From assembly GCA_946479615.1 (NCBI GenBank), contig CAMLGR010000042.1:1-29073 (forward strand): a stretch of DNA of 29,073 bases, given 5' to 3'. The notes below the pieces were generated by a model, which was not told the origin of the DNA, searched no databases, and was given only the letters and a program-made list of their open reading frames with translations. This document shows, piece after piece, positions 2,077-19,993 of the stretch. This DNA comes from an uncultured Bacteroidota bacterium (GTDB lineage: Bacteria; Bacteroidota; Bacteroidia; Chitinophagales; Chitinophagaceae). A program made the translations under genes and the position numbers. Position 1 is the stretch's first letter. Each line of letters opens with the position of its first letter.

Positions 2077-2444
2077 TGAGCGCGTGATATGTTAGACTTA
2101 TGCCTAATCATCAGACTGTATTCCTTATCTTTTCTGTATCTCTGCTCTATCTTTTCTTCGAATTTTCCCTTATGTTTTGTCTATGTTTTCTATATCGGTT
2201 GTAGCTGCTGTATATAAGCAGTATTTAAACAGATTTTGAGTGTTCTGTATCCAGCCTCTTTTTCGGACTTCCTCATTTTATCAAATAGAGCTTACGCATG
2301 AAAAAAGCTATTTCACGAATGACTTCTTCGCTCCCCGCGTAATATTGTTGCAAAACCGGGGCTGCCGCTGCTATATTGCACTTGTTGACCGGTTATGCAG
2401 GGCACACCTGGAACCATGAGAAACGGCTAGATTCCTTCACTCAT
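2077..2444. other. Intergenic, no supported gene
   Basis: This stretch is pyrimidine-rich on the plus strand between 2110 and 2180. No promoter, RNA gene or repeat was recognised. A minus-strand open frame of about 40 codons (2273-2394), ending REIAFFMRKLYLIK, has no start codon near its 5' end and is treated as a possible gene relic only. Confidence 0.5.
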
Positions 2445-2609
2445 GCCCGGGAGCATAAAGGACACAAGCCCGCAAGCGGGCCACGAAGAACACATAAAGC
2501 CGGGATTTCATTGTGGGCGGCGTAGCCGCCTGGTGTCCATCGTGCTCCTGGGCTAGTTCAGGAATTGTTTCACTGAGGATCACAGGGATAAAGAGGACCG
2601 CTGAGAATA
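2445..2609. repeat. Structured dispersed repeat, copy B (fuller copy)
   Basis: This is the second copy of the repeat at 496-655. Outer arms GCCCGGGAGCA (2445-2455) and TGCTCCTGGGC (2543-2553) pair with one G-U, continued by GGACAC (2460-2465) against GTGTCC (2533-2538). Inside lie hairpins GCCCGC-aa-GCGGGC (2468-2481) and GGCGGC-gta-GCCGCC (2516-2530). The whole can fold as a branched cruciform or RNA. A purine-rich tail with GATAAAGAGGACCGCTGAGA follows outside the outer stem. It appears to be a non-coding mobile or structural repeat of this genome. Confidence 0.7.
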
Positions 2610-2647
2610 GGTGCAGTTGCCTTTAAGCCAGGCCAACCTCGCACCTC

Positions 2648-2708
2648 GGTAGGGTTTTGTTCGGAGATAAAGCGCTCGGAACGCTTTATCTCCGAACGAA
2701 ACCCTACC
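2648..2708. repeat. 27-bp-arm near-perfect palindrome
   Basis: The left arm 2648-2674 begins GGTAGGGTTTTGTTCGG. The right arm 2682-2708 is its reverse complement with one T/C change that would be a G-U pair in RNA. The loop is CTCGGAA. It lies about 285 bases ahead of the large lipoprotein gene, with no T-tract, so it is more likely a repeat element than a simple terminator. It directly follows dispersed repeat copy B and may be part of the same composite element. Confidence 0.75.
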
Positions 2709-2922
2709 CAATCCCGACCGAATCCTGAAGCAGGGGCGCAACAGCGGTTATCTTCACATAAATAACTGTGATTTTTCACATTTTTGACAGGCGAGGATAA
2801 CATAACTTTCATGGAATATCGGCATGCGGCAAAACAAGGTAATAGAATTCCGGCTGCCCGGTTTTCCATGTTCCACCCAATAACCTGGTTCAAACATGAA
2901 AAATCAGGCAGCAATTTTACTA

Positions 2923-2930
2923 TAACTTTG
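2923..2930 (+). promoter_or_regulatory. Candidate -7 element TAACTTTG for the VCBS lipoprotein gene
   Basis: TAACTTTG fits the Bacteroidota TAnnTTTG -7 consensus exactly and lies 63 bases before the chosen ATG at 2994. No clear TTTG is present about 20 bases upstream, so the -33 half is weak. The position argues against the longer reading frame that begins upstream of it. Confidence 0.4.
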
Positions 2931-2993
2931 GAAAAGCCATTGTATAACGACCTTCTTGTTTTACAGGCAGCCCCTAACCATTTTATACCTGAG

Positions 2994-5900
2994 ATGAAAT
3001 ACCTGCTGTTCTGCTTACTGTGTGCTTGCGCCCTGCTGGTAGGCTCCTGCAAAAAGGAAACAAATAAAGACGGACTTCTTTTCGAAAAGATGGATAATAC
3101 CGGCATCGACTTCAACAATGAAGTAAGCGATAGCCGCACCGAGAACAGCTTCCTGTTCCGGAATTTTTATAATGGCGGCGGCGTTGCCCTGGGAGATGTC
3201 AATAATGATGGCTATCCCGACCTGTTCCTGACATCCAATATGGGCGCGAATAAACTCTACCTGAATAAAGGAAATTTTCAATTCGAAGATATCTCTCAGA
3301 AAGCCGGCATCTTACCCGATGATAAATGGAACACCGGCGTTGTATTCACCGATATCAATGCAGATGGCTGGCTCGATATCTATGTTTGTACCTCCGGTCA
3401 TATGGGAACAGGCACCCGTAAGAATAAACTGTATATCAATAATCACAACCTCACCTTCACCGAATCGGCTGCGCAGTACGGGTTGGATATATCTGCCTAC
3501 AGCACCCAGGTTTCATTCTTCGACTATGATATGGATGGTGATCTTGATTGCTTTATGATCAATAATTGCCCCATCCCCATCAACCGGCTCAATTATGCCA
3601 ACAGGAGAAATATGGCCGACAGCTCCTGGCCGGTCAATGACCTGCTCAAAGGCGGCGGGGATCATTTATACAGGAACGATGAAGGACATTTTTCAGAAGT
3701 TACCCTGGAAGCAGGCATACATGGTGGTCTTATCAGTTTTGGTCTTGGTGTTTCTGTTGGGGATATCAACAATGATGGTTACCCCGATGTATATGTTTCC
3801 AACGATTCCTACGAAAGGGATTATCTCTATATCAATCAAAAGAACGGAACATTTAAAGATGAACTGGAAGATTGGATGCAGCATACCAGTTTCTCCTCGA
3901 TGGGCGCCGATATAGGTGATATCAATAACGATGGCTATTCCGATATCTTCACCACCGATATGCTGGCCATGAACGACTACCGGTTAAAAACAACCGGCTC
4001 CTTCGATAACATCAGCCTGTTCAACAGCAAACTCAAATCGGGATTCTATTACCAGTATACCAAGAATTGCCTGCAGCTCAACAACAGGAACGGAAAGTTT
4101 ATCGATATGGCCCGCTATAGCGGCATGGCAGCCACCGACTGGAGCTGGGGCGCACTCCTGTTCGATATGGACAATGATGGCTGGAACGATGTACTGGTTT
4201 GCAATGGCGTTAACCGCGATGTGACCAATCTCGATTTCATGGATTTCTTTGCCAATGATGTAGTCAAGAAAATGGTGATGACGGGTAAGAATGATGAGAT
4301 CGATAAACTATTGAAAGAAATTCCGCAAACCGCCTTACCGGATAAAGCCTACCGGAATAATAAAGATCTTTCCTTTACCGATATTGGTGATAAATGGGGG
4401 CTGGGCGAACCCGGTTTCTCCAATGGCGCTGCCTATGCCGATCTCGACAATGATGGGGATCTTGATCTCGTCATCAACAATGAAAATCAACAGGCATCTG
4501 TCTATAAAAACAATTCACGCCAGCTCAATAAAAATAATTATCTCTCGGTCGTATTGAAAGAGCCCGGTAAAAATCCGTTTGCGATCGGCAGTAAAGTGCA
4601 GGTGTTTACCGGCGATGAAATACTCACACGCGAACAGGTGCCCAGCCGTGGATTTCAATCCTGCGTGGATTATAAACTGGTTTTCGGATTGGGTCAGCAT
4701 ACAACCATCGATTCCATGATCATTACCTGGCCCGACAGAACGATATCGCATATCAGTTCGCCGGCAATCAACCAGGTGCATATGATCAGCAAAACAGGAC
4801 AGGAACCGGTAAAAAAAGATGAGCATACTAATCAACGAGCTGCTTATTTCACCAAAATCGAATCTTCCTTTGATAAACACAATGAAGATGACTATATAGA
4901 TTTTTATACGGAACGCGGTGTACCGCGACTGCTTTCGCGTGAAGGCCCTGGTACCGCCTGCGCCGATATCAATGGCGATGGATTAGCTGATATCTATATC
5001 GGAGGCACACCAGGTTATCCCGGGCAGTTATACATTCAATCGGCGAATGGTTCATTTAGTAAGAAAGAGGACAAAGCATTACTTGCCTTTCCAAATGTTG
5101 AAGATGCCGCCGCCTTATTTTTCGATTGCGATCATGATAATGATATGGACCTGCTGGTGTGCCCGGGTGGTAATAATCATCCGGCCAAAAATCCTGAACT
5201 GCAATTGCGTTTATTTAAGAATGACGGGAAAGGAAATTTCATATACGATGCGGAAGCATTTCCCGGAACAGGCATGGATATTTCCGTAGCTATCCCCAAT
5301 GATTTTAATAAAGATGGATTTACCGACCTCTTTATCGGTGGCAGGAATTATCCCGGCGAATATGGCAAAGACCCGCAGAGCTTTTTATTTGTCAATGATG
5401 GCAATGGACACTTTACAGATATAGCTGCCTCAAAAAATCCTGTTATCGCGAATATCGGTATGGTCACCGGTGCTGTATGGGCCGACATGACGGGTGATGG
5501 TGACAAGGAACTGGTCATTGCCGGTGAATGGATGGCCCCGAGAATATTTTCATTTCAAAAAGATCATTTTGAAGAGATCAAAACAAATATCAGCCACCTG
5601 TTTGGCTGGTGGCAGACCATAGCCGCCGCCGATATCAATGGCGATGGCAGGGAAGACCTGGTACTCGGAAATATCGGTGAAAACTTTTACCTGCGGCCCG
5701 ATTCGGCTAACCCGGTAAAACTTTGGCTGAATGATTATGACAACAACAGCAGCATCAATAAAATCATAAGTTATACGGTGAATGGAAAAGACATGCCCGT
5801 ATTCCTGAAACGCGATCTCGAAGAACAATTACCCATTATTAAAAGAAGCAACCTGAAACATGAACAGTATGCAAAGAAATCTGTACAGGAACTTTTTCCC

Positions 5901-6314
5901 AAAGAGTTAATGGATGCGTCTGTGGTGAAAGAATTTACTTATCCCTCTTCCTGTATCGCTATCAATAATGGCAATGGAAACTTCACGATACAAAAATTGC
6001 CTGTCATGTGCCAGTTGTCCTGCATCAATGCTATCAGGGTATTGGATGTAAACAAAGATGGCCGGCCCGACCTGGTCACCGGTGGAAATCAATTTGGCTT
6101 TTTACCACAGTTCGAAAAGCTGGATGGATCTTTTGGCGATATATTGCTGAACGACGGGAAAGGAAAATTGACCCGTGTAGATCCGCCGGAAACAGGGCTC
6201 ATGTTACACGGTGAATTGCGGGGGATCGATCAGTTCAGCGACAGGAATAAAAACAACTATTTCCTTTTCCTTCAAAATAATGACTACCCGGTCCTCTACC
6301 GGTTGAATAAATGA
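2994..6314 (+). CDS. Large VCBS/FG-GAP repeat lipoprotein with internal ASPIC/UnbV domain (CRTAC1-like)
   Basis: The 1106-residue product starts with a lipoprotein signal peptide, MKYLLFCLLCACALLVGSC, lipid-anchored Cys 19. That supports ATG 2994 over an upstream in-frame start that would bury the signal. Seven calcium-binding-type blades precede an ASPIC/UnbV domain (about 513-599), for example DVNNDGYPD, DINADGWLD and DLDNDGDLD. Six more follow, including DINGDGLAD, DFNKDGFTD and DVNKDGRPD, so 13 D-x-D/N-x-DG-type loops imply two beta-propellers. A cell-surface or periplasmic binding or scaffold role is inferred; no enzymatic motif is visible. It is the first gene of a nine-gene same-strand envelope cluster and is followed by a 26-bp inverted repeat, so it may be its own transcript. 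Family assignment is firm; ligand unknown. Confidence 0.9.
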   Translation: MKYLLFCLLCACALLVGSCKKETNKDGLLFEKMDNTGIDFNNEVSDSRTENSFLFRNFYNGGGVALGDVNNDGYPDLFLTSNMGANKLYLNKGNFQFEDISQKAGILPDDKWNTGVVFTDINADGWLDIYVCTSGHMGTGTRKNKLYINNHNLTFTESAAQYGLDISAYSTQVSFFDYDMDGDLDCFMINNCPIPINRLNYANRRNMADSSWPVNDLLKGGGDHLYRNDEGHFSEVTLEAGIHGGLISFGLGVSVGDINNDGYPDVYVSNDSYERDYLYINQKNGTFKDELEDWMQHTSFSSMGADIGDINNDGYSDIFTTDMLAMNDYRLKTTGSFDNISLFNSKLKSGFYYQYTKNCLQLNNRNGKFIDMARYSGMAATDWSWGALLFDMDNDGWNDVLVCNGVNRDVTNLDFMDFFANDVVKKMVMTGKNDEIDKLLKEIPQTALPDKAYRNNKDLSFTDIGDKWGLGEPGFSNGAAYADLDNDGDLDLVINNENQQASVYKNNSRQLNKNNYLSVVLKEPGKNPFAIGSKVQVFTGDEILTREQVPSRGFQSCVDYKLVFGLGQHTTIDSMIITWPDRTISHISSPAINQVHMISKTGQEPVKKDEHTNQRAAYFTKIESSFDKHNEDDYIDFYTERGVPRLLSREGPGTACADINGDGLADIYIGGTPGYPGQLYIQSANGSFSKKEDKALLAFPNVEDAAALFFDCDHDNDMDLLVCPGGNNHPAKNPELQLRLFKNDGKGNFIYDAEAFPGTGMDISVAIPNDFNKDGFTDLFIGGRNYPGEYGKDPQSFLFVNDGNGHFTDIAASKNPVIANIGMVTGAVWADMTGDGDKELVIAGEWMAPRIFSFQKDHFEEIKTNISHLFGWWQTIAAADINGDGREDLVLGNIGENFYLRPDSANPVKLWLNDYDNNSSINKIISYTVNGKDMPVFLKRDLEEQLPIIKRSNLKHEQYAKKSVQELFPKELMDASVVKEFTYPSSCIAINNGNGNFTIQKLPVMCQLSCINAIRVLDVNKDGRPDLVTGGNQFGFLPQFEKLDGSFGDILLNDGKGKLTRVDPPETGLMLHGELRGIDQFSDRNKNNYFLFLQNNDYPVLYRLNK

Positions 6315-6323
6315 AAAATACAT

Positions 6324-6429
6324 CTCCTCGGTTCTCTTTCTCTCTGTGGAACGATCCTTCCATACAGGCGACCTTGCTTATCCGAAAAATATTCCACGGA
6401 GGACCACAGAGAGAAAGAGAACCGAGGAG
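6324..6429. terminator. 26-bp perfect inverted repeat after the VCBS gene
   Basis: Arms 6324-6349 (CTCCTCGGTTCTCTTTCTCT...) and 6404-6429 are perfect reverse complements, separated by 54 bases. It starts nine bases after the stop codon. No T-tract follows, so a role in transcript ending is inferred from position only. The right arm CCACAGAGAGAAAGAG resembles the purine-rich tails of the dispersed repeats at 496 and 2445, suggesting a related mobile origin. Confidence 0.55.
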
Positions 6430-6566
6430 GAAGGTCTTCATGCCTGCGCAAATTGGAAAAGGTTGATTATCAAAATACTACCCAACCAGTGAGGAGGTGT
6501 CACCTGGTAAGATACTTTTTGCCGGCAATACAGAAATACTTATTTTGTGTATGCCTGACGCTTATT

Positions 6567-7121
6567 GTGAAAAAAATTGCAGCCATATTCTTTCTGTCTA
6601 TACTTTCCTTTAACTGGTTAGGTTATCGTATTGTATTCGATTGGCTCGAAACAAAACACAGCCGGCAACTCGAAGCGAGGATCGATTTCGATAATTACAA
6701 CGAAGAAGATCTTATTTCCATCAAAACTGCTATCTCACTTCCTTACTATAATAACTCAACTACATTTGAGCGCGTGAATGGAGAGATCGAGATCAATGGT
6801 GTGCAGTATAAATATGTGAAGAGAAGATTCTTCAGTGATTCGGTAGAGGTGCTTTGCATTCCAAACATTACCGCCACACAGATCCAGGCAGCGAAAGATA
6901 ATTTTTACCGCCAGGCCAACGACCTGCAAACAAATGAGCAGGGGAAAAAAGCGCCGGGCACTACACCTGCATTTAAAAACTTGCTTAGCGAATATTGCGA
7001 ACAACTGACTGATTGGGACCTTGTTCTTTTCCAGTCCACGCAATTATATAACCCGTACTCTTCGGTTATTATACAGTCCTTCAAAGCAGATACTCCTGCT
7101 CAGCCACCGGATAGGGCTTGA
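6567..7121 (+). CDS. Conserved exported or membrane-anchored small protein, unknown function
   Basis: I start this gene at GTG 6567, giving 184 residues that begin MKKIAAIFFLSILSFNWLGY, a signal peptide or single anchor helix. An upstream in-frame ATG at 6453 would add 38 residues unlike a signal sequence, and it lies just after the inverted repeat. The rest is soluble: RQLEARIDFDNYNEEDLISI, then FERVNGEIEINGVQYKYVKR, then VEVLCIPNITATQIQAAKD. This arrangement matches a conserved Bacteroidota family I have no name for. The C-terminal third is variable and proline-containing. It sits between the large VCBS lipoprotein and the haloperoxidase-like operon, so an envelope function with them is plausible but unproven. 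Confidence 0.6.
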   Translation: MKKIAAIFFLSILSFNWLGYRIVFDWLETKHSRQLEARIDFDNYNEEDLISIKTAISLPYYNNSTTFERVNGEIEINGVQYKYVKRRFFSDSVEVLCIPNITATQIQAAKDNFYRQANDLQTNEQGKKAPGTTPAFKNLLSEYCEQLTDWDLVLFQSTQLYNPYSSVIIQSFKADTPAQPPDRA

Positions 7122-7229
7122 TCCTCTTTTCAGCAATTACATTTTTTGATCGGCTTTTTTTACCGGCACCAGCATTGACAGGCGGCCATTGGCCGGCATC
7201 CTGCTTTGTGCCATAATATATATTTACCA

Positions 7230-8561
7230 ATGAAACGTTGCGCCTTCTTTTGTATCCTCTTAGTAGTATTCGCATCCTGTAATAAGAAGAAGAATGATTA
7301 TAAGGAAATATTACACGATCCGATGCTGTATTGTACTACTGTGCATGAATTGAACCAGGTGGTGATGGGAAATAACTTTTCTCCCATTATTGCCTCGCGG
7401 AATTATTTGTACGCCAGTGTTGCAGGATATGAAGCAATGGCCGCCGGAAATCCTGATAAATATTATTCCCTGGCCGGTCAATTGAATGGTTTGAAAACCG
7501 TTCCGAAACCTGATGCATCCAAACCCATCGACTATGAACTGGCTTCGCTCCTTTCTTTTTGCAAACTGGGTGAAGCGGTGACATTCCCTGCCGGCAGTAT
7601 GTCTTATTATGTAGACAGCCTGAAAAAACTGGCAACGGACCATGGCATGCCAACTGATGAGTTAAAAAATACCATTGCTTATTCGGATAGTCTTTCTGCA
7701 GCGATCATGGCATGGAGTAAGGGTGATATGTATGCACAAACACGGAGTTATCCAAAATACAATGTAAGAAGCGAAATAGAGGGTCGCTGGGTGCCAACGC
7801 CCCCGGCTTACTCGGAAGCGATGGAACCAAACTGGCGCGTCATCCGCCCGGCCGCAATGGATAGCGCTAACCAGTTTGTTCCCCCGCCGCCGCCGCCATT
7901 CGCGATCAGGGATAAAAAAAGCAAATACTATTACGAAGTAATGCTGATCAAAAATGCCGGCGATTCACTGACCGATGAACAAAAACATATTGCTAATTTC
8001 TGGGATGACAACCCCTTCAAATTAAATGTATCGGGTCACGTAATGTTTGGTACAAAAAAGTTTTCACCCCCCGGTCACTGGATGAGCATCGTTGGTATTG
8101 CCGCACAAAAAGCCAAGTCCGATTTTATTACGACCACTTTTGCCTATGCGATTACGGCTATTGCACAATTCGATGCATTCATTCAATGCTGGGATGAAAA
8201 ATTCAGGTCCAACTATGCACGTCCTGAAACGATCATCAACCGCTATATCGATCCTGAATGGAGACCCTTGTTACAAACCCCGCCTTTCCCGGAATATACC
8301 TGCGGACATTCAACAGCATCAGCAGCGAATGCAGAAGTGCTGACCAGTGTATTCGGCGACAATTTTGCCTACAAAGATTCCTCTGAATTGGAATTTGGTA
8401 TCAAAAGCCGTTCGTTTACCTCTTTCCGCAATGCAGCCGTGGAAAATAACTGGGCGCGTTTTTATGGCGGTATCCATTTTCATAATTCCTGCGTGACTGC
8501 CAGGGAGTACGGTACAAAAGTTGGCGATTATATAGCTCAGAAGCTGAAGTTTAAAAAATAG
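7230..8561 (+). CDS. PAP2/vanadium-haloperoxidase-like lipoprotein with altered active site
   Basis: The product has 443 residues with a lipoprotein signal MKRCAFFCILLVVFASC (Cys 17), which fixes the start at 7230. The C-terminal third follows the PAP2/vanadium-haloperoxidase layout. K324-x6-R331-P332 is intact, but the PSGH motif reads TCGH (Cys 358, His 360). The SRx5HxxxD motif reads ARFYGGIHFHNS, with Arg 410 and His 416 kept but Ser changed to Ala 409 and the terminal Asp changed to Ser 420. Retained Lys, both Arg and both His suggest oxyanion binding may survive. Activity could be phosphatase, peroxidase or lost. A Pro-rich loop (PPPPPP) lies near residue 215. It begins a tight four-gene unit with two barrels and a second paralog. 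Confidence 0.82.
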   Translation: MKRCAFFCILLVVFASCNKKKNDYKEILHDPMLYCTTVHELNQVVMGNNFSPIIASRNYLYASVAGYEAMAAGNPDKYYSLAGQLNGLKTVPKPDASKPIDYELASLLSFCKLGEAVTFPAGSMSYYVDSLKKLATDHGMPTDELKNTIAYSDSLSAAIMAWSKGDMYAQTRSYPKYNVRSEIEGRWVPTPPAYSEAMEPNWRVIRPAAMDSANQFVPPPPPPFAIRDKKSKYYYEVMLIKNAGDSLTDEQKHIANFWDDNPFKLNVSGHVMFGTKKFSPPGHWMSIVGIAAQKAKSDFITTTFAYAITAIAQFDAFIQCWDEKFRSNYARPETIINRYIDPEWRPLLQTPPFPEYTCGHSTASAANAEVLTSVFGDNFAYKDSSELEFGIKSRSFTSFRNAAVENNWARFYGGIHFHNSCVTAREYGTKVGDYIAQKLKFKK

Positions 8562-8593
8562 CTTATCAAAAAACAAACCTCAAATCAATTGTA

Positions 8594-9661
8594 ATGAAAC
8601 AGTTCTACATATTATTGTTGGCGATAGCTGCCCTGTCTGTGCAAAAGACGATTGCACAGGGTTGTGTGGCTATCAAAGGCACAGCAGGTGTCTGCAGCCG
8701 CCCGGCCGATGCAAAAGGCTGGGAACTCAATCTCAATAACCGGTATTTCAGATCCTATAAACATTTCGTAGGAACAGAAGAACAAAAACAAAGGGAAAAA
8801 GAAGGCAGTAACGTGATCAATCATTCCTATGAACTCGATATCACTGCCACACGCACGATCAATTCAAGATGGTCGGTGGCGGTTACATTGCCGATCATGT
8901 CATTTGCCCGCTCTTCTTTATATGAGCATGATGGACAGACACGTCACAGTACGCATTCATTCGGAATTGGTGATGCCCGTTTTTCTGCGTATCGCTGGAT
9001 GTTTGATCCTGCCACTTCTCATAAAGGAAACATACAGCTCGGCGCCGGTATCAAATTGCCAACGGGTGCGTATGATTACCAGGATTATTTTTATAAAAAA
9101 GCCGATTCCAGTGTGCTGGGCCCGGTTGATCAATCCATTCAACCCGGTGATGGTGGCACCGGTATCACCTTTGAAGTAAATGCTTTTTACAACTTCGTTC
9201 CTGAATTTGGCGTATATGGAAGTTTCTTCTATTTATCCAATCCCCGCGAAGTGAACGGGACCTCTACTTCCCGTGGTGGTGCTGTATCTGCAACGAATAA
9301 AAAATACAATACGGATGTAATGAGCGTACCCGACCTGTTCATGACAAGGGCTGGTGTAAGCTATATGATCAATAAATTTTCTTTAGCGGCTGGTGTACGG
9401 GTGGAAGGACTTCCTTCGAAAGATATCATTGGGGGCAGCCGTGGTTTCAGAAGACCTGGTTATATCATTTCAGGTGAACCCTCTGTTACATTCATTGCGA
9501 AGAAAACCAGTTTCAACCTGGCGGTTCCTTTTGCATTAAAAAGAAACCGTACACAAAGTGATTCTGACAAGCGCCGTTCGGCTGATACCGGTACGCATAT
9601 ACAGGGCGACGCTGCTTTTGCCGATTACCTTATCAGTGCGGGTATGACGATCCGCCTGTAA
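8594..9661 (+). CDS. Outer-membrane beta-barrel protein, transporter-like (MetA-pathway type)
   Basis: The 355-residue product begins with a Sec signal ending at SVQKTIAQ (about residue 21). Repeated alternating strands follow, including WSVAVTLPIMSFARSS, FGIGDARFSAYRWMF and NIQLGAGIKLPTGAYDY. The 'LPTG' turn after an amphipathic strand and the closing strand LISAGMTIRL are typical of the barrel family annotated as transporter or Phenol_MetA_deg-like. Two Cys near the mature N-terminus (GCVAIKGTAGVC) could form a disulfide. The gene follows the first haloperoxidase-like gene by 32 bases and precedes a second barrel by 46, so co-transcription is likely. It may form a pore or support lipoprotein display; the substrate cannot be read from sequence. 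Confidence 0.75.
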   Translation: MKQFYILLLAIAALSVQKTIAQGCVAIKGTAGVCSRPADAKGWELNLNNRYFRSYKHFVGTEEQKQREKEGSNVINHSYELDITATRTINSRWSVAVTLPIMSFARSSLYEHDGQTRHSTHSFGIGDARFSAYRWMFDPATSHKGNIQLGAGIKLPTGAYDYQDYFYKKADSSVLGPVDQSIQPGDGGTGITFEVNAFYNFVPEFGVYGSFFYLSNPREVNGTSTSRGGAVSATNKKYNTDVMSVPDLFMTRAGVSYMINKFSLAAGVRVEGLPSKDIIGGSRGFRRPGYIISGEPSVTFIAKKTSFNLAVPFALKRNRTQSDSDKRRSADTGTHIQGDAAFADYLISAGMTIRL

Positions 9662-9707
9662 GTTGAATAAACGATGACGATTGAACTCCAAAACAAACTC
9701 TTGAACA

Positions 9708-10667
9708 ATGAAAAATTTTAAAACCCTGGTGGCAGCCGCCGCGATAGGTGTCTGTGTGGTGGCAGTACCTGTTGCAGCATCGGCACAGACCGATATCGAT
9801 GCCATCATGATGGAAAAAAATGCTCTTTGTGTCGGCCCGATGTACAGTTACAGTAGCTGGAAAAACTATTGGGAAGGCACATTGAAACGGGACAACCTGA
9901 ACCTGGGCCGGGTATCCACACAGATGTACAGCTTCATGGGCGCTTACGGACTGACCCGTAAGATCAATCTTTTGTTCGGTGCGCCGTATGTAACGACCAA
10001 AGCCTCTGCCGGCACCATGCATGGCATGAAAGGCATCCAGGATCTCAGCTTATTTATCAAATGGAAAGGATTGGAAAAAAGAATGGGCGATGGCCGCTTA
10101 TCTGTTATTGGTATCGGCGGTTTGTCATTCCCGTTGACAAATTATGTTCCTGATTACCTGCCGCTATCGCTTGGCCTGCATAGTACTACTTTGTCTGCAA
10201 GGGCCATGATTGATTATGTACAACGGAATTTATTTGTGACAGGCTCTGCTACTTATGTATACAGAAGAAATATAGAGATCGATCGCAGTTCCTATTATAC
10301 CACTGAAACACACCTGACCAATGAAGTGGAAATGCCGGATGGCGCCAATTTCAATTTCAGGGCAGGCTATCGCAGCGAGCGATGGATTGCAGAAGCGGTG
10401 GTCAATAACTGGACAACCTTAGGCGGTTTTGATATTACCCGGAACAATATGCCGTTTCCCAGCAACAGGATGAATGCAACAACGGCAGGAGTGAATATCA
10501 AATATGTACTGCCTTCTATCCCGCAACTTTCCATCGTTGCCGGTGGCAGTACTACACTCGCCGGCAGGAATATGGGACAGGCGAATACGGTGTATGGTTC
10601 CTTCTTCTATGTATTTGACCTGGGTAAGAAAGATCATTCATCTGGTAAATCTTCAAAAACGAATTGA
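9708..10667 (+). CDS. Second outer-membrane beta-barrel protein
   Basis: The 319-residue product begins with a signal peptide MKNFKTLVAAAAIGVCVVAV, cleaved after ASAQ near residue 27. Barrel-like strands follow: MYSFMGAYGLTRKINLLFGA, GRLSVIGIGGLSFPLTNY, NLFVTGSATYVYRR and ANFNFRAGYRSERWIAEAVV. A short hydrophilic tail rich in Ser and Lys ends it. Length and layout fit the transporter-like barrel group, but it is not a close copy of the upstream barrel. Its stop at 10665-10667 is followed after one base by the ATG of the second haloperoxidase-like gene, evidence of translational coupling. Confidence 0.72.
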   Translation: MKNFKTLVAAAAIGVCVVAVPVAASAQTDIDAIMMEKNALCVGPMYSYSSWKNYWEGTLKRDNLNLGRVSTQMYSFMGAYGLTRKINLLFGAPYVTTKASAGTMHGMKGIQDLSLFIKWKGLEKRMGDGRLSVIGIGGLSFPLTNYVPDYLPLSLGLHSTTLSARAMIDYVQRNLFVTGSATYVYRRNIEIDRSSYYTTETHLTNEVEMPDGANFNFRAGYRSERWIAEAVVNNWTTLGGFDITRNNMPFPSNRMNATTAGVNIKYVLPSIPQLSIVAGGSTTLAGRNMGQANTVYGSFFYVFDLGKKDHSSGKSSKTN

Positions 10668-10668
10668 T

Positions 10669-12219
10669 ATGAAAAAGCTGTTTTCTTTATCTATACTTTT
10701 CCTGGCAGCCGTTGCAGTGATTGTTATTGCGTGTAATAAAGACGTCGAGGGCAGAACAGATAACTCACCTGCTCTTCATCCTGCCAATATCGATATCAAT
10801 GCCGGTACCTGGAAACCGGTATTGCTGACATCCGCGACTGAATTCCCGGTGGCTGCTCCTGCCGCTACCACTACACCTGATTATATCGCGCAGGTGAATG
10901 AAATAAAAACATGGCAGGCCGATCTCACCACTGAAGAAAAGAGTATTGTAAAATACTGGAGCGCCGGTGCGGTACTTCGCTGGAATGAGATCATGCGTGA
11001 CCTGGTGGCAAAGCATAACCTGCCTCCTTACCAGAATGCGGATGGCACTTATCCTGCTCCCAATGCGAATAATCCATTGGCCTACCCGCAGTTTCCTTTT
11101 GCCAATCCTCCTTATGCGAGCAGGGCCTATGCCTATGTAAGCGCTGCACAGTATGATGCTCTTGTAGCGGCCTGGTATTATAAGAAATTATATAACCGCG
11201 CTGCACCTTATACAGTAGACGCAACGGTAAATGCATTGATCCCTAAATCCGACCTGCCATCTTACCCCTCGGAAGATGCAGTAGTAGAAGGTGTATCTGT
11301 TGAACTGCTGAAACTATTATTCCCGGGCGACCAGGACTATATTCAGCAAAAAGCGGAAGAGCATAAACGCGCCCGCATCATTGCAGGAGCCAATGTGCGC
11401 AGCGATATAGAAGCCGGTGAAGCATTGGGCAAGGCAGTGGCACAGAAATTTGTTACCCGTGCACGTGGCGACAGGGCCGGTACGGCCGGTGGCAACCAGG
11501 CTATCTGGACACAATTTGAAACAGACTGTATTGCGCGCGGCGAAACTCCGTGGTATAGCCTGGAACTACCCAAGCGACCGCCGATGCTGCCTTTATACGG
11601 AAAAGTAAAAGCATTCTTATTCGATTCATTAACGGCTATATCACTTCGTCCGCCACCACCACCGCCGGTGAATAGCCCTAAAATGAGAGACGAAACAAAA
11701 GAGATCTATGAGTATGTAAACAATCCTACAAGAGAGAGAACGCGTATCGTTCATTTCTGGGCCGATGGTGTAGGAACCTATACACCTGCCGGTCACTGGG
11801 ACGCTATTGCAGCAGAAGACTTTATTCCGAAGAACTTCAGCGAAGTAAGATGGGCCAGGAATTTTGCCCTGATCAATATGGCGCTGATGGATGCAGGTAT
11901 CGTATGCTGGGATACAAAGTTCTTTTACTTTAATCCAAGACCCACACAACTCGATGCAAAAATTAAAACATTAACAGGGATACCGAATTTCCCTGCCTAT
12001 ATCTCTGGCCACTCCACATTCAGTGCCGCTGCGGCTACGATCATGGGACATATCATTCCTGAACGTGCTGCTGCGTATACAGCGATGGCAAACGAAGCAT
12101 CCATGTCGAGAATGTATGGAGGTATTCATTACCGGAGCGATTGCCAGGTGGGACTGGACGTAGGAAAGAATATTGGCAACTATGCCGTTCAGAGAGCTAT
12201 AACAGACGGAGCTGAATAA
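10669..12219 (+). CDS. PAP2/vanadium-dependent haloperoxidase-like lipoprotein, complete active-site signature
   Basis: I start at ATG 10669, one base after the previous stop, because this gives a lipoprotein signal MKKLFSLSILFLAAVAVIVI-A-C (Cys 22) and 516 residues. All PAP2/vanadium-haloperoxidase elements are present: K417-x6-R424-P425 (KFFYFNPRP), S446-G447-H448 (ISGH), and S480-R481-x5-H487-x3-D491 (SRMYGGIHYRSD). The N-terminal 180 residues form a variable cap region, and a Pro-rich loop (PPPPPP) precedes the catalytic half as in the upstream paralog. Family members bind vanadate and oxidise halide with peroxide, or bind phosphate and act as phosphatases; the sequence alone does not decide. 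It is likely anchored at the outer membrane. Confidence 0.87.
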   Translation: MKKLFSLSILFLAAVAVIVIACNKDVEGRTDNSPALHPANIDINAGTWKPVLLTSATEFPVAAPAATTTPDYIAQVNEIKTWQADLTTEEKSIVKYWSAGAVLRWNEIMRDLVAKHNLPPYQNADGTYPAPNANNPLAYPQFPFANPPYASRAYAYVSAAQYDALVAAWYYKKLYNRAAPYTVDATVNALIPKSDLPSYPSEDAVVEGVSVELLKLLFPGDQDYIQQKAEEHKRARIIAGANVRSDIEAGEALGKAVAQKFVTRARGDRAGTAGGNQAIWTQFETDCIARGETPWYSLELPKRPPMLPLYGKVKAFLFDSLTAISLRPPPPPPVNSPKMRDETKEIYEYVNNPTRERTRIVHFWADGVGTYTPAGHWDAIAAEDFIPKNFSEVRWARNFALINMALMDAGIVCWDTKFFYFNPRPTQLDAKIKTLTGIPNFPAYISGHSTFSAAAATIMGHIIPERAAAYTAMANEASMSRMYGGIHYRSDCQVGLDVGKNIGNYAVQRAITDGAE

Positions 12220-12409
12220 TTTTTTTAGTAACATAAGCATACGGCGTTGTAATTCTTTACGATGCCCTTTTTTTCAAATCCGCCCTGCACACTATCCGCT
12301 ACCACGGGGTATAAAAAAGAATTTGTGAATACAGGGTCACGAACCATAGCGTTCATGGTCTTTTGTTCATGTCTTATTATTCTATATCATCTTTTTACAT
12401 TTAACTGAA

Positions 12410-14635
12410 ATGGACTTCAAGTATATAACAAAAGGAATACTGGTTACTGCATTGCTCGGCGTTACTACCAATGTTATTGCGCAACGTGTAAAACAGGAAC
12501 ATATCAATGATTCATTACCGGTGAGAACGCTTGACAATCTTATCGTGGATGCCAAACTTAAAAAAGCCAACAGCGCCTATATGGCCGATGTGGTGGGTGC
12601 CAGCATCTATGCCGGTAAAAGAACCAATACCGTGCAGGTATGGCCCGGCGCTATGGGATTACCGCTTAATTTAGGACGCACTGTGCTGGCAAAGATCCCG
12701 GGCCTCACAATGTGGGAAATGGATGGCGCCGGTACACAATTGAATATCGGTTCCCGCGGCACAGACCCGCATCGTTCTATTGAAATGAATATGCGACAGA
12801 ATGGGTACAATACCAATTCCGATATGTTTGGTTATCCTGAAAATCACTACTCTGTTCCCCTGCAGGCAGTCGAAGAAATTCAACTGGTGCGGGGCTCATC
12901 TTCTTTACAATTCGGACCCCAGTTTGGCGGCATGATGAATTACCGGATCAAGACAGGCGATAGCACCAGGCCTTTCTCGATTGAAAGCGAGCAAACAGCA
13001 GGAGGAAGCAACTTCTTTAATTCATTCAATGCGGTAGGTGGTACCAAAGGCAGGTTCGAATACTATGCTTTTTACGATTACCGTCATGGCGATGGCTGGA
13101 GGGATAATGCCAATTTCAATTATCATTCCTTTTATATTCATACCGGTTACCACATAAGCCGGAAAATTTATATGGCCGCAGAATTTTCCCGTATGGATTA
13201 TGTACAACAGATCGCAGGCGGGTTAACAGATGCACAGTTCCGTGCAGATGCAAGGCAATCTGTCCGTGCCAGGAACTTCTTCCAACCTGTCATCAATATC
13301 CCGGCACTCACATTCGATTATAATATCTCCGCTACCACCCGGCTGGAACTAAAAGCCAATGGTATCATCGGTGAACGGAATAGTGTGCAATTCATCAATG
13401 CAGCCAATATTAAAGATACGATCAATACGGCATTGGGAACGTATAACCCAAGACAGGTAGACAGGGATTATTACAATGGATTTACAGCGGAAGCAAGATT
13501 GCTGCATTTATACCGGATTGGTAAAGTAAACAGCATTATCTCCGGTGGTCTGCGTTATTATACGGAACGCACCAAACGCAAACAAAAAGGGGTGGGAAGT
13601 ACCGGAAGTGATTTTGATCTGGGACTGGCAAATGCATACGGAATAGATCTGCGGCTTAATTCCAATAACTATGCTGTTTTTGCGGAAAATATCTTCCAGG
13701 TGACACCCCGGCTTTCGATCACACCCGGTTTCCGGTATGAAGTGATCAGGACGGATCTCACCGGTGTTATTAATAATGCTACTGCTCCTGTTGCGTACAA
13801 AGGCAACAGGAATTTTCCTTTGTTTGGTACAGGTATTCAGTATGAGTTGAACTCTTTCTCTCAACTCTATGGAAATATATCACAGGCATATCGTCCTTAC
13901 CTCTATGCCAATGTAACCCCGGCAGACAGGCTGGATAAGATCGATCCTTCCCTAAAGGACAGTAAAGGATATAATATCGACCTGGGTTACCGTGGTCATC
14001 TTTCCGATATATTGCAATTCGATATCAATGCCTTTTACCTGTACTATGGCAACAAGATCGGTTTGATCGCGCAAACGCCATCGGGTGGTGGTAATGCTTA
14101 CCTGTACACGACCAATATCGGCAACTCTGTAGCGAAAGGGGTGGAAGTATTTGCAGAACTGTCTTTATTAAAATTGGGTGGCAACAGTAATCCGGGCAGC
14201 GATTGGAAACTATTCAATTCATTGGCCTACGATAATGCAAAATATACCAGTGCTGCCCTGAACAATGGCGGCTCTCTGAAACAGATCGATGGTAATTATG
14301 TAGAGAATGCACCGGTATGGACAGAGAAAGCCGGTATGGATTTCAGGTATAAAACATTTTCTACCGGCATCCAGTTTTCTTATACCAGCAAAAGTTATAA
14401 TGATGCCTTGAATACTGTTTCCAGTGCTAATGGTGTTACCGGTATGATACCGGCTTATCAGGTATGGGATTGGAACTTCAAATGGCAACTGAGCAGGCAA
14501 TATTTTGTATCTGCTGCTGTGAACAATGTAACGGATGAGAAATATTTCAATCGCCGGATCACTTTCTACCCGGGGCCGGGCATATTACCGGCTGACGGGC
14601 GGACCTTTTATATTTCGTTTGGATTTAAAATGTAA
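12410..14635 (+). CDS. TonB-dependent receptor, FecA/iron-citrate-like
   Basis: The 741-residue protein has a signal peptide ending near VIAQ (residue 25), then directly a plug domain, with no CarboxypepD-regulatory or SusC-type N-terminal domain and no N-terminal signalling domain. Plug motifs include QVWPGAMGLPLNLGRTVLAK, IPGLTMWEMDG, QLNIGSRGTDPHRS and EEIQLVRGSSSLQFGPQFGG. The large barrel closes with FYISFGFKM, ending in an aromatic-rich strand suited to outer-membrane insertion. This plug sequence matches receptors labelled Fe(3+)-dicitrate-type in Bacteroidota, but no sigma/anti-sigma pair or siderophore gene is adjacent. It lies 190 bases after the haloperoxidase-like unit. Import of a small chelate or product related to the enzymes is possible but not shown. 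Confidence 0.87.
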   Translation: MDFKYITKGILVTALLGVTTNVIAQRVKQEHINDSLPVRTLDNLIVDAKLKKANSAYMADVVGASIYAGKRTNTVQVWPGAMGLPLNLGRTVLAKIPGLTMWEMDGAGTQLNIGSRGTDPHRSIEMNMRQNGYNTNSDMFGYPENHYSVPLQAVEEIQLVRGSSSLQFGPQFGGMMNYRIKTGDSTRPFSIESEQTAGGSNFFNSFNAVGGTKGRFEYYAFYDYRHGDGWRDNANFNYHSFYIHTGYHISRKIYMAAEFSRMDYVQQIAGGLTDAQFRADARQSVRARNFFQPVINIPALTFDYNISATTRLELKANGIIGERNSVQFINAANIKDTINTALGTYNPRQVDRDYYNGFTAEARLLHLYRIGKVNSIISGGLRYYTERTKRKQKGVGSTGSDFDLGLANAYGIDLRLNSNNYAVFAENIFQVTPRLSITPGFRYEVIRTDLTGVINNATAPVAYKGNRNFPLFGTGIQYELNSFSQLYGNISQAYRPYLYANVTPADRLDKIDPSLKDSKGYNIDLGYRGHLSDILQFDINAFYLYYGNKIGLIAQTPSGGGNAYLYTTNIGNSVAKGVEVFAELSLLKLGGNSNPGSDWKLFNSLAYDNAKYTSAALNNGGSLKQIDGNYVENAPVWTEKAGMDFRYKTFSTGIQFSYTSKSYNDALNTVSSANGVTGMIPAYQVWDWNFKWQLSRQYFVSAAVNNVTDEKYFNRRITFYPGPGILPADGRTFYISFGFKM

Positions 14636-14642
14636 AAACATC

Positions 14643-14675
14643 CCGGGCAATGGGTAATCATTGATCCCTGCCCGG
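14643..14675 (+). other. Intercistronic stem-loop between receptor and VCBS/TPR lipoprotein
   Basis: CCGGGCA (14643-14649) pairs with TGCCCGG (14669-14675), and an inner GGG/CCC adds three pairs after a two-base bulge. It starts eight bases after the receptor stop. No T-tract follows, so it could be an RNA-stability or partial-termination structure that lowers expression of the downstream genes rather than a full terminator. Confidence 0.5.
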
Positions 14676-14705
14676 ATTAATAACCGTTTGCAAAATAACA
14701 TACTG

Positions 14706-16940
14706 ATGAACACTATCCTGGTACGAATCACAACCATTTCCCTGGCGGTATTTTTATTGATTTCCTGTAACAATAAAAATTCGAAGAACCAGGAAATGCT
14801 CAGCCTGCTGGCCAAAGTTGCCAAAAGCGAGTTCAAATCAGCCAATGTGTTTTGCCCGGAGGCCAAACTGACTTATTTTGATTCTTCGGTTACTGCTTCC
14901 CATAATCCCGAAGACCGGTCTCTTGCACAATATTATATGGGGAATGCTTATCTCGAACTGGGAAACGAAAAGAAATCGATCGAAACATTTGAAGCGCTTT
15001 TAAAAAGAAATACTGAAACAAACATCAATGACCTGGAAGAACGGGTAGTCATAATGAAAGCGCTGGCGATGGCTCACTTACGGGAAGGGGAAAGAACCAA
15101 TTGTATTTATAATCACAGCAATGAATCCTGTATTCTCCCGATCTCCAGCCGCGGTGTGCATATCGATAAAACAAGTTCTGAAAAAGCGATTGAATTATAC
15201 AAGACATTGATGAAATGCAATCCCGACGACCTGGAATCAAGATGGCTGCTCAATATAGCCTATATGACTACAGGCACTTACCCGCAGGCAGTTCCCCCGG
15301 AATGGTTGATAAAAGGATTGGATACAGACACGTCTTCTCTTGTAAAGCCTTTCGTGGATGTAGCCGTAAGCATCGGGCTGAACATGAAAAATATGGCAGG
15401 AGGAAGTGTCATCGATGATTTTAATAATGATGGTAATCTTGATTTGGTAACAAGCAGTTGGGATCTGGGCGAAGGAATGCATTACTGCAGGAACAATGGT
15501 AATGGTACGTTTACGGAAGCGTCCAGGTCTTCCCAGTTAACAGAATTTACAGGCGGGCTTAACATACAGCAAACCGATTATAACAATGATGGGTTTAAAG
15601 ACATTTTTGTTTTGCGTGGCGCCTGGAAAGGGACCTATGGGCAGGAGCCAAACTCTTTATTGAAAAATAACGGCGATGGCACTTTTACCGATGTGACCAT
15701 GGAAAGCGGTCTTCTTTCATTTCATCCTACACAGGCAGCTACCTGGGCCGACTTTAACAACGATGGATGGCTGGATGTTTTTATCGGCAATGAAACGTCT
15801 ATGGAGAAAGAAATTCATACCTCTGAATTATACATGAACAATAAGAACGGAACTTTTACAGAAGTAGCTGCCAAAGCAGGTTGTAATATCGTTGCTTTTG
15901 TAAAAGGGGTGACATCGGGCGATTATGATAACGATGGTCTTCCTGATATTTTTGTATCCACCTTAAATGGAAGGAAAATATTACTGAAAAATCAAGGCGT
16001 TGTAAATGGTGTTGTTCAATTTAAAGATGTGGCACAGGAGGCTGGTATCGCTGCTAATACGGCGCGTACCTTTCCTACCTGGTTCTGGGATTATGATAAT
16101 GATGGCTGGCTGGATATTCTTGTTTGCGGGTATGAATTCAAGCGGTCGCTGGCATGGTATGCGGCTGCCGAAGCATTAAATATCGGTACGGGTAATTCGG
16201 GGAAAGTATTTCTTTATAGAAATAAACACGATGGTACGTTCGAAGATGTGACCGTAGAAGCAGGGTTGAATAAGATCGCTTTCGCCATGGGCTCCAATTT
16301 CGGTGATATCGATAACGATGGTTATCTCGATATGTACCTCGGTACCGGCAACCCGCAATACCAATCGCTGGTCCCCAATAAAATGTTTAAGAATGTAGAC
16401 GGAAAACGATTTGTCGATGTAACGGCAAGTGCCAGGGTTGGCAGTCTTCAGAAAGGACATGGTGTTTCTTTTGCTGATATGGATAATGATGGCGACGAGG
16501 ATATTTATATTGAAATGGGCGGTGCTTATACAGGAGATGCTTATCAAAACTCCCTGTATGTAAATCCGGGTCAGAATACGAATCACTGGATCAATGTTTC
16601 TCTTGAAGGAACTGTTTGTAACAGGGCCGCTATCGGTGCAAGAATAAAAGTCACCTTCCAGGAAAATGGAGTAACAAGATCTGTATACAGGGATGTAAAC
16701 TCCGGCGGCAGTTTTGGTTCCAATCCTTTACTACAGCATATTGGTATAGGTAAGGCAACAACGATACAGAGCATTGAAATCAAATGGCCCGGTAATGCAG
16801 TGCCACAGGTATTCAAAAACATTGCCCCTGACTGGAACATATCGATCAGGGAAGGAAATAACACTTACGCTAAAAAGCAATTACCCAAAGTCGACCTGAT
16901 GGCTCATTTATCGAATGCGATCGGGTGCTCACCGGAATAG
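14706..16940 (+). CDS. TPR plus VCBS/FG-GAP plus ASPIC/UnbV lipoprotein (CRTAC1 family)
   Basis: ATG 14706 gives 744 residues with lipoprotein signal MNTILVRITTISLAVFLLIS and Cys 21; an in-frame ATG 45 bases earlier would add non-signal residues. Residues about 70-200 look like TPR-type helices (YYMGNAYLELGNEKKSIETF; then EKAIELYKTLMKCNPDD). Seven D-x-D/N-x-DG propeller loops follow, from DFNNDGNLD to DMDNDGDED. An ASPIC/UnbV domain (about 624-705) closes it, with WINVSLEG and IQSIEIKWPG. It resembles the gene at 2994 but has a single propeller and an added helical N-terminus. It precedes the DUF3179 gene by 34 bases. A surface adaptor or assembly role is inferred. Confidence 0.88.
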   Translation: MNTILVRITTISLAVFLLISCNNKNSKNQEMLSLLAKVAKSEFKSANVFCPEAKLTYFDSSVTASHNPEDRSLAQYYMGNAYLELGNEKKSIETFEALLKRNTETNINDLEERVVIMKALAMAHLREGERTNCIYNHSNESCILPISSRGVHIDKTSSEKAIELYKTLMKCNPDDLESRWLLNIAYMTTGTYPQAVPPEWLIKGLDTDTSSLVKPFVDVAVSIGLNMKNMAGGSVIDDFNNDGNLDLVTSSWDLGEGMHYCRNNGNGTFTEASRSSQLTEFTGGLNIQQTDYNNDGFKDIFVLRGAWKGTYGQEPNSLLKNNGDGTFTDVTMESGLLSFHPTQAATWADFNNDGWLDVFIGNETSMEKEIHTSELYMNNKNGTFTEVAAKAGCNIVAFVKGVTSGDYDNDGLPDIFVSTLNGRKILLKNQGVVNGVVQFKDVAQEAGIAANTARTFPTWFWDYDNDGWLDILVCGYEFKRSLAWYAAAEALNIGTGNSGKVFLYRNKHDGTFEDVTVEAGLNKIAFAMGSNFGDIDNDGYLDMYLGTGNPQYQSLVPNKMFKNVDGKRFVDVTASARVGSLQKGHGVSFADMDNDGDEDIYIEMGGAYTGDAYQNSLYVNPGQNTNHWINVSLEGTVCNRAAIGARIKVTFQENGVTRSVYRDVNSGGSFGSNPLLQHIGIGKATTIQSIEIKWPGNAVPQVFKNIAPDWNISIREGNNTYAKKQLPKVDLMAHLSNAIGCSPE

Positions 16941-16974
16941 ATCGTCAGGTATATAACCTGTAAAAATAAGTCAC

Positions 16975-18117
16975 ATGAAAAAGATCTTCTGGCTTGGTCT
17001 GATTGGCCTTCTTTTATTTGAAGCTGCCAATGTTTATTTTATTATGCCGATGCCCGGCAGTCAGCAGATGAACAGCATTGACCTGGCTTATTTCTTATAT
17101 CGCTGGCGATGGTTATTCCGTGCCTTGTTCGGCATACTGATATTGGCCGGGCTATTCAGGGCGCATTGGAAAAGAAAAGGAAAATGGGCCGTTGGTATCT
17201 TTTTGATTATAGTGGCGGCAGCTATATACATGATCAACTTCCAAATGGCCGCCGATCATATGTTTTACCAGCCGGAGAGCGTATCATTGGTAACTGCACA
17301 GGAGAACAAGGTAGATTCAGGAAGACTTGTACTTGGAGTGGTATATAACGGGCAGGCCAAAGCATACCCGGTACAATTCTTAGGGTATCATCACCAGGTG
17401 CAGGACACGATAGGCGGCAAACCGGTGATCGTTACGTATTGTACGGTATGCAGAACGGGAAGAGTGTTTGAACCGGTAGTAAATGGTAAACCTGAAAAAT
17501 TCAGGTTGGTAGGTATGGATCATTTCAATGCCATGTTTGAAGATGCTGCTACAAAAAGCTGGTGGAGACAGGTAACGGGGGAAGCGATTGCCGGGAAACT
17601 GAAAGGGCAGACACTGCCTGAAATTTTCAGTACGCAAACAACTTTGGTGGAATGGTTGCAATTACATCCCGGTACGCTGATCATGCAGGCAGATCCTGCG
17701 TTTATTGATTCCTACAGCAAGACCACAAAATATGAAAGCGGGTTAAGCAGGGATGCGCTTACCGGCACTGATAGCCTGTCATGGAAAAGGAAATCATGGG
17801 TGATCGGGGTGAAGGCTGGTACGGGCAGGAAAGCATACGACTGGAATAAATTAATGGAGGAACATATCATCCAGGATAAAATTGCAGGCACACCGGTGGC
17901 GATAGTATTAGCGGCTGACAACAAAAGTTTCTTTGCATTTGAAAGACCGGTGGATGCGGCGCAGTTTTCTTTATATAACGACACTATACGGTACAACGAT
18001 CATCTTTTCCGGGTTGATGGAAAAGGTATTGATACAACCTACTCATTAAAGCCATTGCCGGCTTACCAGGAATTCTGGCACAGTTGGGAGACATTCAACC
18101 CGGGTACGCTGCGATAA
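16975..18117 (+). CDS. DUF3179 domain protein, membrane-anchored
   Basis: This 380-residue protein has three N-terminal hydrophobic segments (about residues 4-25, 45-62 and 71-90). A periplasmic-side DUF3179 domain runs from about 100 to the end. The family hallmark is visible: AYPVQFLGYHHQVQDTIGG, then VTYCTVCRTGRVFEP with Cys 156 and Cys 159, and later RKSWVIGVKAGTGRKAYDW. The paired Cys could be redox-active or bind metal. Biochemical function of DUF3179 is not known to me. It closes the same-strand envelope cluster, 34 bases after the TPR/VCBS lipoprotein, so it is probably co-transcribed with it. Confidence 0.85.
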   Translation: MKKIFWLGLIGLLLFEAANVYFIMPMPGSQQMNSIDLAYFLYRWRWLFRALFGILILAGLFRAHWKRKGKWAVGIFLIIVAAAIYMINFQMAADHMFYQPESVSLVTAQENKVDSGRLVLGVVYNGQAKAYPVQFLGYHHQVQDTIGGKPVIVTYCTVCRTGRVFEPVVNGKPEKFRLVGMDHFNAMFEDAATKSWWRQVTGEAIAGKLKGQTLPEIFSTQTTLVEWLQLHPGTLIMQADPAFIDSYSKTTKYESGLSRDALTGTDSLSWKRKSWVIGVKAGTGRKAYDWNKLMEEHIIQDKIAGTPVAIVLAADNKSFFAFERPVDAAQFSLYNDTIRYNDHLFRVDGKGIDTTYSLKPLPAYQEFWHSWETFNPGTLR

Positions 18118-18490
18118 CAAATTACCATACACAGGCATCAGGGAACAGGGAATTTCAACTGATGAAACATATCATTTCGTTACCGGGGATTTCTTATTCA
18201 ACATACTAATCGGGTTATCCAATAGATACTATGTAAGGAGAAACACATAAAAACCGGGAAAACCAATCTGGAACCGATTACACAGTAAAGTATACGGGTA
18301 GAAAATCTATATTGCAGATGTGTTGGATTATATACGAGTTACGAGGGTAGAAACTTCTTGTCTTTATGCTGCGCTAACCCAGGACCTGGAGACAGGTATG
18401 AGCAGTCATTAAAAAGCACACTTTTTATTGCGTATGCATCCGGTTGACCGGCCAGTACCGGGGAAGCGATCGGTAAACCTTTTCATAAGA
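18118..18490. other. Intergenic before trehalase, little recognised
   Basis: About 370 bases separate the envelope cluster from the trehalase. A short hairpin TAAAAAG-caca-CTTTTTA sits at 18410-18427. No exact TTTG/TAnnTTTG promoter pair was found and no dispersed repeat was recognised. An in-frame ATG at 18428 lies just after the hairpin, but the residues before 18491 look unlike a trehalase N-terminus. Confidence 0.45.
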
Positions 18491-19990: not shown

Positions 19991-19993
19991 AAC

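Follow-up and report, generated by a model that had tools for sequence, protein, structure and literature searches.

The haloperoxidase of Zobellia galactanivorans (PDB 4cit and 4usz) is an iodoperoxidase in PMC5064120, which describes at least five genes homologous to it in Arenibacter C-21, where the uptake of iodine depends on glucose, oxygen and calcium and a mechanism joining glucose oxidase to haloperoxidase has been proposed. The COG4313 channels (PDB 4rl8) include, in the available text of PMC4493636, the proposed trichlorophenol channel TcpY and the sphingosine channel SphA, and the available text of PMC12096828 presents RclC, of the Escherichia coli rclABC system, as a DUF417 protein required for hypothiocyanite resistance, its mechanism being unknown. 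Here we compare with these systems a locus from an uncultured Bacteroidota bacterium of the Chitinophagaceae (contig CAMLGR010000042.1), of which a stretch of 29,073 nt, the window, was analysed. Nine consecutive genes at 2994..18117, g1 to g9, all lie on the + strand (Table 1). The earlier note had described them as envelope genes with export signals or membrane helices, uninterrupted by genes for cytosolic enzymes, regulators or transporter ATPases, which the open reading frames and N-termini confirm. The families it named also hold, with a PAP2 Pfam match above cut-off in g6 (that of g3, at 21.3 bits, lies under the cut-off of 27.2), a TonB-dependent receptor in g7, FG-GAP and ASPIC domains in g1 and g8, and DUF3179 in g9. 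The conserved unit is g2–g6, often with g7. We tentatively read the whole as a modular cell-envelope halide-oxidation locus with uptake of hydrophobic products, a reading to which we give almost an even chance.

Since an initial set of 79 loci, retained from a genome scan with g4 that detected 111 relatives, had been picked by g4, we measured linkage in a census of 116 genomes from one Chitinophagaceae-type family, counting genes as linked when they shared a strand and were no more than 12 kb apart. We worked at the family level because a class-level census of 149 genomes had g4 matches in only 10. Both g5 and g6 occur in 40/116 genomes and are adjacent in all 40 (gaps of 5–176 bp). Among these 40 genomes g3 is linked to g6 in 32, g4 in 25 and g7 in 18, with g7–g6 gaps of 57–1896 bp, while g9 (29 genomes) and g8 (10 genomes) are linked to g6 in three and one, respectively. 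The small gene g2 stood outside this census and was counted instead in loci containing g5 and g6; 70 such loci, including 10 repeats, gave 60 distinct loci, 38 of them at least 10 kb long, and g2 lies within 8 kb of g6 in all 38. Recurrence of the core g2–g6 block far exceeds chance. The single nine-gene cluster proposed in the earlier note is thus upheld for its core and, by the co-occurrence check that the note had suggested, also for g7 in part, but the nine genes are not an indivisible unit and g8 and g9 seldom travel with g6. Rows dropped from the census were eight weak g4 matches (E>1e-10), four weak g5 matches, a second fragment in G213, the G189 fragment and row G212:C2. Rows for g3 and other vanadium-haloperoxidase (VHPO) genes were divided into the top 56, used for linkage, and 69 of lower identity, used for the adjacency counts below (five shared). 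For g7, 35/62 rows were used, including the low row G178:C115 since it adjoins g6; the 27 omitted rows are all more than 12 kb from any g6, and the count of 18/40 therefore holds.

The 79 loci picked by g4 show the same genes in several arrangements. Genes like g2 are present in 58, plus 8 divergent ones of Flavobacterium type, g5 in 39, g6 in 36 and g3 in 40, two of the last (L077 and L079) being short fragments that resemble g6. Mucilaginibacter loci mostly read g2-g5-g6-DoxX-g4. The order in Flavobacterium-type loci is g2-g4(-g5-g6), followed in 6/8 by a DUF417 gene 3' of g4 or g6; a Spirosoma locus (L078) reads g2-g4-g5-g6, its g2 having been spotted by eye and then aligned. In Spirosoma telluris (L079:9139-16500) g7 stands between g4 and g5, and the g7 and g6 frames are broken, by decay or sequencing error. 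In many Mucilaginibacter loci (L021-L076) g4 is followed by a series of RidA-like, D-threonine-aldolase-like, dipeptidase-like and MGH1-like genes (names read from the sequence).

The g3 protein aligns with the Zobellia haloperoxidase along nearly the full length of both (query 8-448 to chain 8-448 of 4cit). Its motifs WDEKFRSNYARP, CGH and ARFYGGIH preserve the Lys, Arg, Gly-His, second Arg and second His, as well as a Trp three residues before the Lys; we take the Lys, both Arg and both His to be the oxyanion residues and the Ser of the SGH motif to be a pocket residue. In g3 this motif reads TCGH in place of TSGH, and because the pocket Ser is replaced by Cys we call g3, on its sequence, a VHPO homologue with an altered pocket rather than a VHPO. 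Four residues beyond the second His, g3 has Ser where 4cit has Ala and the acid phosphatase 7f17 has Asp, and the four PDB matches that g3 gives at E<=1 include no acid phosphatase. A Ser-type orthologue matches 4cit about as well as g3 does (E 4.9e-114), and Cys-type and Ser-type proteins hold the same position in the block. A 51-row tree was built from 39 g3 proteins (those of the g4 loci plus that of the window) and 12 diverged copies; its 24 Cys rows fall into a single group with support 100/99 and its 14 Ser rows into another with support 97/79. One row was left untyped by this pattern, and two of the diverged ones were marked as long branches. Apart from its pocket Cys, g3 may also differ from the Zobellia enzyme in its setting, a block that includes two barrels and a further VHPO/PAP2 protein. 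The Trp three residues before the Lys, from which the available text of PMC11871015 derives halide specificity, was unusable as an indicator, since the iodoperoxidase 4cit and chlorinating enzymes both have it.

Haloperoxidase-like genes, of which the genomes examined hold up to several each, also occur away from the block, where they tend to adjoin genes of the g1 type. For at least 46/69 diverged VHPO copies, a listed VCBS/ASPIC gene is no more than 2.5 kb away, a lower bound because at most six candidates were scored per genome and 150 rows were used; the chance expectation is ∼0.005 per copy, a rough figure from the mean listed count and a 4.5 Mb genome. Over the same distance the controls gave 0/62 for g7-like receptors, 1/30 for g9, 0/44 for g4, 0/40 for g6 and 1/16 for g8. 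Another five of the 69 VHPO rows stand beside g4 or g5. Twenty regions were then inspected, nine around g8 matches and twelve around diverged VHPO copies, one belonging to both sets. Around the diverged copies, 11/12 VHPOs have a VCBS/ASPIC gene next to them or separated from them by a single small frame, the exception (L197) reading g2-x-VHPO-DoxX-g7, and SusC- or SusD-like genes (25–37% identical to the probes) are present in 9/12. The block itself is usually without a listed neighbour of this type (6/41 operon VHPOs have one within 12 kb), so that g1 directly upstream of the block, as in the window, is an uncommon combination. Genes of the g1 type, which the earlier note had included in the cluster, thus keep company with VHPOs elsewhere, but none of the 40 g6 genes has a listed one within 2.5 kb. 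Calcium-type loops number 12 in g1 (of DxDxDG type; 0.05 expected in shuffles) and seven in g8 (0.006 expected).

No Pfam match was found at E 0.01 for g2, g4 or g5. The g2 protein, the one member of the locus whose family is not already known, is modelled as one N-terminal helix, a four-strand sheet and a disordered tail ending in PP (mean predicted local distance difference test score, pLDDT, 76.7; tail <50). The PP is invariant in an alignment of 25 g2 sequences, and no PDB fold match was obtained at E<=0.001. Genes like g2 also precede g8 genes (L184:1483-4422 and L185:1-2300), with g2 directly 5' of g8 in L188, L189 and L192 as well, among the nine fetched g8 regions; g2 may thus open several kinds of cassette as their common first gene. 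The g4 protein is probably an outer-membrane barrel of a large family (6432/8000 scored candidates at E<=0.001). Among the matches listed, its closest homologue, from a Chitinophagaceae metagenome-assembled genome (MAG), is 85% identical and PF13557 appears on 1/120 homologues; a tblastn search of 72,556 plasmid records gave no match to g4. The g5 protein shares the barrel fold of the COG4313 channel 4rl8 at 14% identity. By our count PF13557 is found on 32/120 of its homologues among the matches listed; since g5 itself has no such match, we file it as a fold-level relative only. Of the pores that the earlier note saw in the barrels, g5 looks like a channel for hydrophobic molecules rather than a general pore, and it differs from the described COG4313 channels in the VHPO/PAP2 gene that adjoins it wherever it occurs in the census.

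We favour halide oxidation because of the homology of g3 to 4cit, the conservation of the gene block, the VHPO–VCBS/ASPIC adjacency and the COG4313 fold of g5; DoxX/DUF417 and AhpD-like neighbours in relatives, the likeness of DUF417 proteins to RclC, and the iodine uptake of Arenibacter C-21 were also counted in its favour. The core surface proteins may oxidise something outside the cell. In the proposed mechanism, the lipoproteins g3 and g6 would be located at the outer membrane and, with hydrogen peroxide and halide, would form hypohalous species, with hydrophobic or phenolic material as the target of oxidation or halogenation. Hydrophobic products would cross the outer membrane through g4 or g5 and larger ones would be imported by g7, and the calcium-loop propellers g1 and g8 would either bind substrate or act as tethers for the enzymes. 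Self-damage would be limited by redox or membrane proteins, namely g9 in the window and, in some relatives, AhpD-like, DUF417 and DoxX proteins. A more specific version, possible though distinctly more doubtful, is an envelope machine whose paired lipoprotein haloperoxidases, one with a Cys pocket and altered oxyanion chemistry, would feed halo-oxidised hydrophobic compounds into the cell through dedicated channels, with VCBS/ASPIC partners and protection by DUF417, AhpD and DUF3179 proteins; if true, it would give the ASPIC/UnbV-VCBS, DUF3179 and g4/g5 barrel families a common functional context. Arenibacter C-21 resembles this locus in being a member of the Bacteroidota, in its several homologues of the Zobellia enzyme and in its calcium need; it differs in being marine, and PMC5064120 describes no gene cluster, channels or propellers. 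By analogy, and as no more than an idea, glucose for peroxide might come from trehalase and the GH65 enzyme, and the propellers might account for the calcium need. In the open-access papers covered by our searches (for two of these, 20 of 747 and 10 of 14 hits), we found no description of the gene block or of the VHPO–VCBS pairing. The fixed block and the frequent pairing offer a testable context for haloperoxidase-like genes, one that bears as well on the Ser-to-Cys pocket subclass, g2, and the DUF3179 and ASPIC/UnbV families.

A longer relative, G240, carries further partner genes. Its order is g2-g3-g5-g6-g7-AhpD-MFS-AhpD-AhpD-SusC-SusD-AhpD-g2-g8-g9-LacI-MFS-trehalase (MFS, major facilitator superfamily), with SusC assigned by TIGR04056, SusD by eye, and no match to g4 at E<=0.001. 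The window looks like a shortened form of a G240-like locus in which g7 and g8 were brought together, a direction of change that we infer. Of the four AhpD-like proteins of G240, the one scanned scores above the cut-off of TIGR01926 (peroxidase-related enzyme), which a copy in L019 misses by 0.6 bits, and an MFS protein of G240 resembles aromatic-acid symporters at a score below cut-off. Of the 38 distinct loci that reach 10 kb, 19 have DoxX/DUF417-type genes and 4 have AhpD-like genes no more than 8 kb from g6. Chitinophagaceae-family cases of the former come from L186 and from L145, a short locus. The seven proteins of our family f47 (five from Flavobacterium, one from a Flavobacteriaceae MAG and one from a Chitinophagales MAG) all match DUF417, and six of them match the RclC model weakly. 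The downstream DUF417 gene of the Flavobacterium-type loci is the feature shared with rclABC; the window differs in this respect as far as its ten scanned proteins show. For g9 the PF11376 match reaches 180.7 bits against a cut-off of 27, and the protein contains a single CTVC. In the available text of PMC9312934 DUF3179 is tabulated as a selenoprotein family with UxxC/T, in that of PMC9230427 it is merely named, and in that of PMC8115612 we found no mention of haloperoxidase, PAP2 or DUF3179.

Several observations weigh against halide oxidation, beginning with the pocket Cys of g3. After 4cit (E 7.3e-18), the next PDB matches of g6 are acid phosphatases (7f17, E 3.7e-10), and g6 retains the K, R, SGH, R, H and D of the acid-phosphatase motif (KX6RP, SGH and SRX5HX3D), its Asp included. 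Because of g6, the leading rival persists: g3 and g6 would be PAP2-type phosphatases that dephosphorylate surface lipid or organic phosphates, COG4313-type channels would import the hydrophobic remainder, such as sphingoid bases, and g7 a larger product. PAP2 is indeed the chief Pfam name of both proteins and SphA provides a COG4313 precedent for sphingosine, yet the PDB matches of g3 and its Ser at the position of the phosphatase Asp count against this rival, as do the length of g6, its passing of the VCPO_2nd cut-off, if barely (27.3 bits against 27, 0.3 bits over, with no single stretch passing alone), and the redox-type partners of some relatives; phosphate genes were not searched for. We judge this rival unlikely, and g6 itself, a VHPO/PAP2 lipoprotein, may have either halide peroxidation or phosphatase activity. 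The earlier note had allowed for an oxidative or a phosphate-handling pathway; the oxidative option suits g3 better, and g6 leaves room for phosphate. Also unfavourable to halide oxidation are the 18/69 diverged VHPO copies with neither a listed VCBS/ASPIC gene nor g4 or g5 beside them, and the scarcity of listed VCBS/ASPIC genes around operon VHPOs. The redox partners are unevenly spread, since 16/19 DoxX/DUF417 loci belong to Mucilaginibacter or Flavobacterium-type lineages, a clustering that implies few independent events; the RclC equivalog score is not reached by a Flavobacterium protein (33.9 bits against a cut-off of 275), and the ten window proteins scanned include none of the DUF417, DoxX or AhpD type.

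The core often lies beside alpha-glucan genes, with GH65 in 13/38 and trehalase in 10/38 distinct loci within 8 kb of g6, which halide oxidation leaves unexplained. The operon could instead be an accessory of an alpha-glucan utilisation locus, its VHPO-like lipoproteins acting on or binding sugars and the oxidative theme misleading. The GH65 copy in L001 passes the kojibiose hydrolase model NF053734 and genes of LacI, MFS, GH13-like and fructokinase-like type recur (names read from the sequence), but Mucilaginibacter, Flavobacterium and Spirosoma loci hold no match to that GH65 or trehalase, and we consider this explanation improbable. Compatible with any of these is a third proposal, that g1, g8 and g9 are chance neighbours and the functional unit is g2–g7 only. 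The weak linkage of g8 and g9 to g6, the inverted repeat between g1 and g2, and the lack of any listed VCBS/ASPIC gene within 2.5 kb of a g6 gene fit it well. The single G240 locus, however, keeps g2-g3-g5-g6-g7 and g2-g8-g9 together and in the order of the window, in L190 and L191 the g8 gene is accompanied by AhpD, SusC/SusD, VCBS or VHPO genes, and VHPO–VCBS pairing is frequent elsewhere, which makes chance neighbourhood somewhat unlikely, if less so than the phosphatases.

Table 1. Features of the locus and its flanks (window coordinates; gene starts are our refined choice among candidate starts).
Feature	Position	Strand	Description
g1	2994..6314	+	1106-aa VCBS/FG-GAP + ASPIC/UnbV lipoprotein; FG-GAP_3 E 7e-80, UnbV_ASPIC E 6.8e-18
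Perfect 26-nt inverted repeat	6324..6429		arms 6324-6349 and 6404-6429, in the g1-g2 gap
g2	6567..7121	+	GTG start; small protein, N-terminal helix; first gene of core operon
g3	7230..8561	+	vanadium-haloperoxidase homologue, lipoprotein; 4cit E 2.2e-115
g4	8594..9661	+	probable outer-membrane barrel, large family
g5	9708..10667	+	outer-membrane barrel, COG4313 channel fold
g6	10669..12219	+	VHPO/PAP2 lipoprotein, 516 aa; PAP2 E 9.4e-16
g7	12410..14635	+	FecA-type TonB-dependent receptor; TonB barrel E 3.7e-30, Plug E 9.8e-6
g8	14706..16940	+	TPR + VCBS/FG-GAP + ASPIC lipoprotein; FG-GAP_3 E 2.8e-45, UnbV_ASPIC E 2.2e-12
g9	16975..18117	+	DUF3179 membrane protein with CTVC (CxxC); PF11376 E 5.5e-53
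GH37 trehalase	18434..19990	+	Trehalase E 2e-137; neighbouring gene, left out of the core

Intergenic gaps from g1 to g9 are, in order, 252, 108, 32, 46, 1, 190, 70 and 34 bp. Judged by eye, g1, g3, g6 and g8 have lipoboxes, g4, g5 and g7 have signal peptides that stop before Gln, and g2 and g9 have hydrophobic helices. Siderophore and FecA models match g7 at scores below their cut-offs. SusC/SusD models, by which a polysaccharide utilisation locus would be recognised, matched none of the ten window proteins scanned. A PADLOC scan for anti-phage defence gave no match to the nine proteins, Rfam none at gathering score, and no tRNA was found. The motif TTG-N17-20-TAnnTTTG, which we take to be the Bacteroidota promoter consensus, is absent from 2000-20500 (0.45 expected in + strand mononucleotide shuffles), so transcription units could not be placed.

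Upstream of g1, a 114-nt element occurs in two copies (541-654 and 2495-2608, 88% identical), each adjoined by a 48-nt repeat (488-535 and 2452-2499, 92%). The repeat pairs bracket low-GC genes at 698-1087 and 1399-2076 (GC 0.30 in 1001-2000), and a near-perfect 30-nt palindrome, 93% complementary, follows at 2648-2708. On the far side, 20101-27681 presumably holds housekeeping genes, ribosomal-protein-like at 20986-22960, elongation-factor-like at 23062-23898 and uridylate-kinase-like at 24865-25581. The ribosomal families of this region recur in L001, L011 and L059, and one of them in L014.

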